Shown here one piece after another: positions 36,552-41,388 of a stretch of 46,500 nucleotides of DNA. Source of the DNA: Marinosulfonomonas sp. (GTDB lineage: Bacteria; Pseudomonadota; Alphaproteobacteria; Rhodobacterales; Rhodobacteraceae). The stretch spans positions 1 through 46,500 of the forward strand of contig JAHRVC010000021.1 of assembly GCA_019090885.1 (NCBI GenBank), in the 5' to 3' direction. Position 1 is the stretch's first letter; each line of letters starts with the position of its first letter. The notes under the pieces were generated by a model. It had not been told where the DNA came from and searched no databases. It saw nothing but the letters and a program-made list of their open reading frames with translations. The position numbers and the translations under genes were made by a program.

Positions 36552-37529
36552 CTAACCACTGCCAATCAATGCACCTGCTGCAAAGACCAGTGCACCACCC
36601 AGCACGACCTGAAACGTGGCCCGCAGGAAAGGCGTGTCCATAAACCGGTTCTGGATCCAGACGATGGCCCATAATTCGACGAACACGATGATGATGGCTG
36701 CGATAGTTGCAGTCCAAAAGTCCGCAATCAGATACGGCAAGGCGTGGCCGAGTCCGCCGAGCGTGGTCATTATCCCGGCTGACAGCCCGCGTTTGTAGGG
36801 TGATCCACGCCCGGATAGCACGCCATCGTCCGACGCCGCCTCGGTAAAGCCCATGGATATACCCGCGCCGATTGAAGCCGCCAGCCCGACCAGAAATGTT
36901 GTGCTGGTGTTGTGGGTTGCGAATGCGACCGCAAAGATTGGCGCGAGGGTCGAGACCGATCCATCCATCAACCCGGCCAAACCCGGCTGAACCCAAGTCA
37001 GGATGAATTTGCGGTGTGCTTCACGATCTTCGGTGCCGCGCGTGTCGGGATCAAGATGCTCTTGCTGAAGTGCTGCGGCTTTGTTCGAATGGCCGGCCTC
37101 GGCTGCAGCAAGATCACCCAGCAATTTTCGCGTGTCAGCATCGCCAGTCCGTTCGGCGGCCATACGATAGAAAAGCTCCGCCTGCCGTTCCATTGCATCC
37201 GCTTCTTCTCGCATGCGTTCCAGCCCAAGGTTTTCGACCAACCAAACCGGTTTGCGCGCATAATAGCCAGACACATGTTCGCGCCGGATCAACGGGATCA
37301 CATCGCCAAAGCGCTGTTTGTGCAATTCGATCAACCGGCGGCGATGTTCGTCTTCTTCTTCGGCCATTTCGTCAAACACGGCCGCAGACCCGGGAAATTC
37401 CTCTCGCAGCCGCTCGCCATATTGTCGATAAATCCGCGCGTCGTCTTCTTCCGACGAGATCGCCAATGCCAGAATTTCCTGTTCGCTCAGGTCAGCAAAA
37501 CGCTTACGACTGGAAATTCCGGGGATCAT
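36552..37529 (-). CDS. mbfA: membrane-bound ferritin-like iron exporter MbfA (rubrerythrin domain + VIT1/CCC1 domain)
   Basis: N-terminal rubrerythrin-like EEDDARIYRQYGERLREEFPGSAAVFDEMAEEEDEHRRRL; C-terminal VIT1-like PGLAGLMDGSVSTLAPIFAVAFATHNTSTTFLVGLAASIGAGISMGFTEAASDDG. Confidence 0.93.
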   Translation of the reverse strand: MIPGISSRKRFADLSEQEILALAISSEEDDARIYRQYGERLREEFPGSAAVFDEMAEEEDEHRRRLIELHKQRFGDVIPLIRREHVSGYYARKPVWLVENLGLERMREEADAMERQAELFYRMAAERTGDADTRKLLGDLAAAEAGHSNKAAALQQEHLDPDTRGTEDREAHRKFILTWVQPGLAGLMDGSVSTLAPIFAVAFATHNTSTTFLVGLAASIGAGISMGFTEAASDDGVLSGRGSPYKRGLSAGIMTTLGGLGHALPYLIADFWTATIAAIIIVFVELWAIVWIQNRFMDTPFLRATFQVVLGGALVFAAGALIGSG

Positions 37530-37540
37530 GGCAGGCTCCT

Positions 37541-37557
37541 TTTAGAACAGTTCTAAA
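37541..37557. promoter_or_regulatory. ICE motif / Irr-box-like palindrome TTTAGAA-CAG-TTCTAAA
   Basis: Perfect 7-3-7 palindrome 11 bp upstream of the mbfA start codon. Confidence 0.8.
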
Positions 37558-37656
37558 GTATTAGGATTTTGGCCGTGGGCAAGGGGCAAATGCTGCCGAC
37601 TGGCCGTCTATTTCGCCGTGGTCAAAGCCGTTCGTTGGCAGAAGCGGGCCAATCAG

Positions 37657-38373
37657 CTATTTCTTGCTCCGAACCTTTAGCGACCCGCCAATTTCCTGCA
37701 CATCGAATTTTCCGGCCTTCTTGAGCAAGGTGCTAAGGTTTCGGCAACCATAGTTGCGAGGGTCAAACCCCGGGTTAGCTGCGTTGATCTGCTGACCGAG
37801 CGGGCCTAACGCAACCCACTCGGCGTCGGGGTCCATCTTGGCCATTGTGGCCGCGATAAGTGGGCGCGCTTTCGACGGGGGGTCAGTATTCTTCGAGTCG
37901 CCCTCATTTGCTTCGCTGTCGGCGTTCATCGCTTCGAGGTTTTCTAAGAAGATGAAGCGTTTGCAGGCAGCTATGAAGGAAGCGGGTGTTTTTCGCTCAC
38001 CCATGCCGTAAACATCTAATCCCTGCTCACGGATACGGCTTGCAAGGCGCGTAAAATCGCTATCCGAGGAGATCAGGACAAAGCCGTCAAACTTTCCTGA
38101 GTGTAAAATGTCCATTGCATCGATAACCAAAGCAATGTCACTCGCATTCTTATTTATTGTGTTCGCAAATTGTTGGTGCGCATTTATCGCAAGAGACGCC
38201 AAAATTTCTTTCGTCCACCCTTGCGGTGCCCCGGCTGAGAAGTCGCCGTATATCCGGCGAATGCTGGCCTCACCCAAAGATGCAATTTCTTCAAATAGCG
38301 GATGTGCAAACCGAGCGGCCACATTGTCCGCGTCGATTAAAACCGCGTAGTGCGGGCGATCTGGCGCCGTCAT
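37657..38373 (-). CDS. NYN-domain (LabA-like) protein with C-terminal OST-HTH/LOTUS domain
   Basis: YAVLIDADNVA...IRRIYGDFSA, SDIALVIDAMDILHSGKFDGFVLISSDSDFTRLASRIREQG; C-terminal LGQQINAANPGFDPRNYGCRNLSTLLKKAGKFDV. Confidence 0.9.
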   Translation of the reverse strand: MTAPDRPHYAVLIDADNVAARFAHPLFEEIASLGEASIRRIYGDFSAGAPQGWTKEILASLAINAHQQFANTINKNASDIALVIDAMDILHSGKFDGFVLISSDSDFTRLASRIREQGLDVYGMGERKTPASFIAACKRFIFLENLEAMNADSEANEGDSKNTDPPSKARPLIAATMAKMDPDAEWVALGPLGQQINAANPGFDPRNYGCRNLSTLLKKAGKFDVQEIGGSLKVRSKK

Positions 38374-39691: not shown

Positions 39692-39706
39692 GAACAAATC
39701 AAGAAC
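39692..39706. promoter_or_regulatory. alphaproteobacterial LexA box GAAC-AAATCAA-GAAC
   Basis: Exact GAAC-N7-GAAC (= GTTC-N7-GTTC) 26 bp before imuB; a third GAAC at 39715-39718. Confidence 0.75.
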
Positions 39707-39732: not shown

Positions 39733-41388
39733 ATGCATGGCCGCCGTATCCTTTCCCTGTGGTTTCCCCGCCTTGGGGCAGAGCGGTTGTTGCGCTTGGA
39801 ATCTGGCTTGCTCGGCGGTCCGGTCGCCGTTGTCCGGGATCAAAGCAATATGCAGATCCTGTCCAGCCTGTCAGTTGAAGCAGAAGAGCAGGGCCTGCGT
39901 CCCGGCCAACCCATGCGCGATGCCCTTGCCATGTGTCCCACGCTGATTACCCGTCTTGCCAACCCGCAGGCAGAGGCCGCGTTCCTGACAGTGTTGCGCA
40001 GATGGGCGGGCAAATATTCCCCTTGGGTGTCCGAGGAACCCCCGGCCTCGCTGGCGATCGACCTGACCGGGTGTGCGCATCTTTTTGGCGGCGAACAGGC
40101 CGTGCTGGCAGCGGTTGAGGATGATTGCGCCGCGCTTGGTCTGACCATTCATGCCGGGATTGCCGATACGGTTGGTGCGGCCTGGGCGTTGGCCCGCTAT
40201 GCCGGGCAGCCGATGCAATTGGCACGCACCGGTGACGCTGTTGATCAGGAAGCGCGCGCTACCCGTGTGCGGGCGGTGAAACGGCGCAACTGGGAACGTG
40301 GCGGCCCGCCGCCCCGACTGGCGCCGCCGGGCAACCGGGCCAGCCGGATCGCCCTGCCGGGTCAGACCCGCACGGCGCTTTCTGCTTTGCCAATCGCGGC
40401 CCTGCGCCTGCCTGAAGATGCGGTTATCAGCCTGACCCGGCTTGGCTTGCGACGGGTGGATGATCTGATCGGCACGCCCCGCGCTGCATTGGCGCGCCGG
40501 TTTGGAAAAGATGTGGTGCGGCGGCTGGATCAGGCTTTGGGGGTTGAGCCTGAACCGGTCTCTCCTGCGCGCCCGCCAATGCATTTTGCCGCCCGGTTAA
40601 GCTTTCCGGACCCGATTGGTCTGGAAAGCGACATTCTGGCCGGGATCGACCGGCTGCTACCGGTCCTGACCAAGCGCTTGCAACAAAAGGGCCGAGGTGC
40701 GCGGCGGGTTGTGCTGCAGCTTTTTCGTAGCGACCGGACGATGCAGTGGTTCGATGTCGGCCTTGCCCGCCCATCTGCGACGCCTGACCGTATCCGCCCG
40801 TTGTTGGCGATGAAACTTGGTGATCTGGACGCAGGTTTTGGCATCGACACGCTGCGGATTAAGGCCAGCGTTACCGAGCCTTTGCATGCCCATCAGCACA
40901 AGGGGCATCTGGATGCGGCGGCCGAGGCCTCGAGCCGTCTGAATACAAATACGGTCATCGACGACCTGATTGGCAAGATCGGCGCGCGGATCGGGCTAGA
41001 GCGGGTGACCCGGGTCCATCCTGCCGACAGTTACATCCCGGAAAAGACCAGCCTGACCTTGGCCGCAGCTTGGTCCGAGGCAGTAACCGACTGGCCCAAA
41101 CCACCTGCGCCGCGCCCCTTGATCCTTTGGTCACCGGAACCAGTGAACGCGCATGAGGTTCCGGTCTTGCCGCTTTCGTTTCGCTGGCGAAGGCGCAAAT
41201 TGCTCGTTTTGCAGGCCACTGGCCCGGCCCGTATTTCGCCCGAATGGTGGCTGGATGATCCGGATTGGCGCACAGGCGTGCGGGATTACTGGCAGGTTAC
41301 GACAGATAGCGGGGAACGCCTGTGGCTTTACTTTGCACATGGCGGCACGATGTCGGCTGGCTGGTTTTGTCAGGGTAGTTTTGCGTAA
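39733..41388 (+). CDS. imuB: Y-family DNA polymerase-like protein ImuB
   Basis: RRILSLWFPRLGAERLLR..., GLRPGQPMRDALAMCP, ASLAIDLTGCAHLFGGE, DLIGKIGARIGLERVTRVHPADSYIPE. Confidence 0.92.
   Translation: MHGRRILSLWFPRLGAERLLRLESGLLGGPVAVVRDQSNMQILSSLSVEAEEQGLRPGQPMRDALAMCPTLITRLANPQAEAAFLTVLRRWAGKYSPWVSEEPPASLAIDLTGCAHLFGGEQAVLAAVEDDCAALGLTIHAGIADTVGAAWALARYAGQPMQLARTGDAVDQEARATRVRAVKRRNWERGGPPPRLAPPGNRASRIALPGQTRTALSALPIAALRLPEDAVISLTRLGLRRVDDLIGTPRAALARRFGKDVVRRLDQALGVEPEPVSPARPPMHFAARLSFPDPIGLESDILAGIDRLLPVLTKRLQQKGRGARRVVLQLFRSDRTMQWFDVGLARPSATPDRIRPLLAMKLGDLDAGFGIDTLRIKASVTEPLHAHQHKGHLDAAAEASSRLNTNTVIDDLIGKIGARIGLERVTRVHPADSYIPEKTSLTLAAAWSEAVTDWPKPPAPRPLILWSPEPVNAHEVPVLPLSFRWRRRKLLVLQATGPARISPEWWLDDPDWRTGVRDYWQVTTDSGERLWLYFAHGGTMSAGWFCQGSFA

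Follow-up and report, generated by a model that had tools for sequence, protein, structure and literature searches.

The palindrome TTTAGAACAGTTCTAAA, located at positions 37541-37557 of the window (the whole 46,500-nucleotide stretch of DNA that was analysed), is in all likelihood an operator of the iron regulator Irr that serves to repress mbfA. Its binding, the resulting repression and the signal sensed in this organism are what we infer from the sequence and its conservation. The operator is predicted to share bases with the −10 hexamer of the mbfA promoter and to touch the Shine-Dalgarno sequence of the gene.

The palindrome and the mbfA gene

The gene mbfA (36552-37529, minus strand) encodes a membrane-bound ferritin-like iron exporter of 325 aa. 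Its product scored 551.3 bits against the curated equivalog model NCBIfam NF045676 (iron exporter MbfA; cut-off 450) and carried the two domains expected of MbfA, an N-terminal rubrerythrin-like domain and a C-terminal VIT1/CCC1 domain (Pfam Rubrerythrin and VIT1). The box is upstream of this minus-strand gene and ends 11 bases from the ATG. The Shine-Dalgarno AGGAG was found at 37536-37540 (minus strand), directly adjacent to the box, which confirmed the initial proposal that the palindrome abuts the mbfA ribosome-binding site.

On the minus strand the site reads TTTAGAACTGTTCTAAA, and it matched all 14 defined bases of the ICE pattern TTTAGAA-N3-TTCTAAA. It had been described as a perfect palindrome of 7-3-7 symmetry; the palindrome is indeed perfect, but its arms are longer, since the outer bases of the central CAG are complementary and the symmetry is thus 8-1-8 (TTTAGAAC-A-GTTCTAAA). 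No second site with up to three mismatches was present on either strand of the window, with 0.03 expected in shuffles, and the 2.96-Mb genome assembly contained no other perfect TTTAGAANNNTTCTAAA. Given its base composition, the genome would be expected to contain about 0.006 perfect and about 0.25 one-mismatch sites. At three mismatches we counted 56 sites against about 72 expected and 102 for a reversed-pattern control. Since this is no excess over chance, only near-perfect genome sites are informative, and the genome-wide three-mismatch count was left out of the evidence.

Conservation of the box and anatomy of the promoter

We have investigated the conservation of the box in two partly overlapping samples. 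Among 30 mbfA loci, comprising that of the window and those of relatives, the box was found just upstream of the start codon in 22, and 20 of 29 had it with up to three mismatches within 60 bases, compared with a shuffle mean of 0.025. In the wider set of 81 mbfA loci, nearly all from Rhodobacteraceae, the upstream box was perfect in 8, had up to two mismatches in 60, up to three in 67 and up to four in 70. None of the 81 shuffled upstream sequences contained a box with up to three mismatches, and two reached four. Together with the sequence match and the uniqueness of the perfect copy in the genome, this conservation upheld the identification of 37541-37557 as a perfect ICE/Irr-box palindrome.

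To describe the promoter, we have aligned 22 mbfA upstream regions anchored on the box. Four conserved blocks emerged, numbered here relative to where the box begins: TTGCa (−25 to −21), TA (−3/−2), the box itself, and a G-rich block (+19 to +22), corresponding to the Shine-Dalgarno sequence. The stretches between them were conserved at background level. At the −10 position the conserved columns read TAnTTT, the closing TTT of which also opens the box. In the larger set, TTG occupied the exact −35 place in 43 of 70 regions (background 2.6%) and TAnnnT the −10 place in 53 of 70 (background 1.9%).

In the window, the TTGCa block, 25 bases ahead of the box, corresponds to a predicted −35 hexamer TTGCCC (37577-37582, minus strand), separated by a 16-base spacer from the predicted −10 hexamer TACTTT (37555-37560, minus strand), whose final three bases would double as the operator's first three. 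Scanning the region with a promoter consensus gave no match, the promoter being recognised only through the comparison between genomes. Based on the −10 position, transcription should start near the operator centre, at 37547-37549 (minus strand), with the operator fused to the −10 of mbfA. The sequence-only reading, which had placed the box between the promoter side and the Shine-Dalgarno sequence, was thus correct on the latter boundary, but on the promoter side the alignment indicates an overlap with the −10, not a position past the promoter. The overlap with the −10 and the covered start site also modify the proposed block of transcription at or just past initiation: polymerase binding itself should be prevented, and not a post-initiation step.

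We propose that an Irr dimer on the box would cover both the −10 hexamer and the start site, keeping RNA polymerase off the mbfA promoter. Release of Irr, which in relatives follows high iron or heme, or peroxide, would allow transcription of mbfA from near the box centre, giving a transcript with a leader of about 19 bases. The MbfA exporter would then be made and cytoplasmic iron lowered.

The box was absent from the site in 8 of the 30 loci of the first sample, and seven of those genomes retain irr (L020, L021, L024, L026, L031, L033 and L040). Judging from these upstream regions, Irr-box control of mbfA is not universal among the relatives, and the boxless loci of irr-keeping genomes, some of which still show a −35/−10-like pair, are suggestive of repeated escape of mbfA from Irr. 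An irr hit was missing in 13 of 249 family genomes, four of which carry mbfA. The box at mbfA was present in 21 of the 29 irr-bearing genomes and in one of four without an irr hit, a trend only (Fisher p = 0.10), given that just these four genomes lacked a hit. The one exception, G167, has an assembly that is 95% complete and fragmented, and its irr may be missing from the assembly. Another genome without an irr hit, G129, has the palindrome TTTTGCATTAATGCAAA about 60 bases before mbfA (L216), which a different regulator, Mur for instance, may recognise.

Irr and alternative explanations for the site

The search for irr, proposed at the outset as the decisive check, identified an Irr-family protein in the genome (G000:C254:1280-1702) that passed both NCBIfam models, with 191.9 bits for IrrA (cut-off 150) and 189.2 bits for Irr (cut-off 170). 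The protein has a single Cys, at position 71, and an HPH motif at 95-97, and its sequence contains no Cys-Pro heme regulatory motif; the heme-triggered degradation of rhizobial Irr should thus not be assumed. The gene adjoining irr is presumably fabA. The genome encodes three Fur-family proteins, Irr, one Fur/Mur-like and one Zur-like, with the Zur-like gene adjoining a pair of zinc-binding-protein/ABC-transporter-like genes. IscR is also encoded and ends in CPAV, with a single cysteine, as has been described for Rhodobacteraceae (PMC4618611).

Irr repression of mbfA had been cited for Rhizobiales. The link between Irr and mbfA held, but the organism belongs to the Rhodobacteraceae, for which the direct precedent is Rhodobacter sphaeroides. 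There, Irr binds the promoter of mbfA (RSP_0850), mutation of irr raises mbfA about 8-fold when iron is limiting, and H2O2 raises it about 9-fold, while the authors assigned Irr no major part in the mbfA response to iron (PMC3413700). According to the citations in PMC3413700 and PMC6956336, this control had been predicted by Rodionov et al. 2006. The two organisms share the family, the gene and an Irr-box at its promoter, with the start here also predicted inside the box, and both Irr proteins lack the heme regulatory motif and possess the HPH motif. They differ in that the box here is a perfect palindrome known from sequence, and in that a Pfam PF03150 search of this genome found no ccpA, the other Irr target in R. 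sphaeroides. Bradyrhizobium japonicum likewise has an MbfA exporter gene with an ICE at its promoter, through which Irr represses mbfA (blr7895; PMC4902296, discussed in PMC3413700). The B. japonicum Irr is subject to degradation with heme and has a heme regulatory motif; because the Irr of this genome has no Cys-Pro motif, it probably reads the signal differently.

A palindrome abutting a Shine-Dalgarno sequence could also act in RNA, as a hairpin controlling mbfA translation, were transcription to start upstream of the box. The conserved −35/−10 instead places the start inside the box, as does the 5′ end of R. sphaeroides mbfA mapped by 5′-RACE (PMC3413700), so that the mRNA would contain one arm only, which makes such a hairpin unlikely. 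Folding revealed no unusual stability (z of 0.97 with the left arm and 0.03 without it), the palindrome hairpin was not the predicted minimum-energy structure, and Rfam gave no match. The box also occurs at other promoters, at varying distances from the start codon. Based on start-site position, folding and the Rfam result, we have rejected hairpin control of translation, which we regard as extremely improbable. A chance palindrome devoid of function is less credible still, to the point of being negligible: AT-rich promoter sequence does generate many three-mismatch look-alikes such as the 56 counted above, but hardly any perfect site is expected genome-wide, and the in-register conservation at 70 of 81 mbfA genes already refutes this explanation.

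Of greater weight, although still improbable, is the binding of another iron or manganese regulator in place of Irr, since the genome does encode a Fur/Mur-like protein, a Zur-like protein and IscR. However, the site agrees with the ICE consensus at every defined base, the Iron-Rhodo-box at which IscR would act is another palindrome, 19 bp long and resembling the RirA box (PMC4618611), and in R. sphaeroides the mbfA promoter is bound by Irr whereas the Mur target sitA is not (PMC3413700). Irr thus remained the preferred regulator of the site.

Boxes at other genes and neighbouring elements

The search for further ICE copies in the genome, also suggested by the sequence-only reading, returned no perfect one, the nearest promoter sites being those of iscR and of a peroxiredoxin gene, both of which are plausible Irr targets and thus in keeping with the proposed operator. 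The iscR site (C177:9685) has one mismatch and is located between iscR and a divergent hydrolase gene. Of 30 relatives, 24 had a box with up to three mismatches ahead of iscR, with 0.07 expected, and it is positioned 3′ of a conserved TTGAC. An Irr-box has also been predicted over the R. sphaeroides iscR/isc-suf promoter, where Irr binding could not be shown in vitro (PMC6956336); hence, a box match alone is no proof of binding.

The two-mismatch site CTTAGAACTGTTCTAAT (L005:1501-1517, equivalent to G000:C244:13175-13191) is 25 bases before a peroxiredoxin gene (L005:1543-2082) whose product belongs to the redoxin family, and it has a 15-base core in common with the mbfA operator. Among 16 peroxiredoxin orthologues, nine had a box with up to three mismatches in the 120 bases upstream, with 0.05 expected. 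That Irr directly controls this redoxin-family peroxiredoxin, in addition to mbfA and iscR, in many Rhodobacteraceae is a proposal to which we give an even chance. The peroxiredoxin was not found as a candidate Irr target in the literature searched.

Several genera also have a near-perfect Irr box before an nfuA-like gene, and one has such a box before a dps-like ferritin gene, the loci being L102, L109, L104, L103, L110 and L113 (in G009, G036, G038, G039, G012 and G030, respectively) and L107 (in G044). The nfuA gene of the present genome has no box.

Upstream of mbfA in many relatives (L016, L022, L023, L030, L032, L037, L040 and L043) there are one to several copies of a different palindrome, T(G/A)AAC-N6-GTTCA, mostly located between mbfA and a divergent TetR/AefR-like regulator gene. 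We have considered these copies as peroxide-activator sites and rejected the idea, as they are better explained as operators of the divergent TetR-type gene, which they probably are. In the window this palindrome has only a three-mismatch look-alike, located elsewhere, and mbfA is not flanked by a TetR gene of this kind; the position occupied by the TetR gene in relatives holds an NYN and OST-HTH/LOTUS gene (37657-38373). The window further contains GAACAAATCAAGAAC at 39692-39706 (plus strand), a GAAC-N7-GAAC motif 26 bases before the gene at 39733-41388. We take this to be the alphaproteobacterial LexA-type motif, and the gene to encode an ImuB-like Y-family polymerase. The motif occurred four times in the window against 1.5 expected, a count that is weak alone.

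The Irr switch at mbfA is already known experimentally in related bacteria, and the site described here is an ordinary, although particularly clean and well-conserved, example of it that adds little beyond what a specialist would expect. The wide comparative sample supports an mbfA operator of Rhodobacteraceae fused to the −10 hexamer and carries over to dozens of genera a mechanism that had been mapped in a single species. Useful by-products are a set of genera that keep irr but whose mbfA appears freed from Irr, and the candidate peroxiredoxin target. If the latter is a true target, one type of Irr operator would link iron export with peroxide removal.
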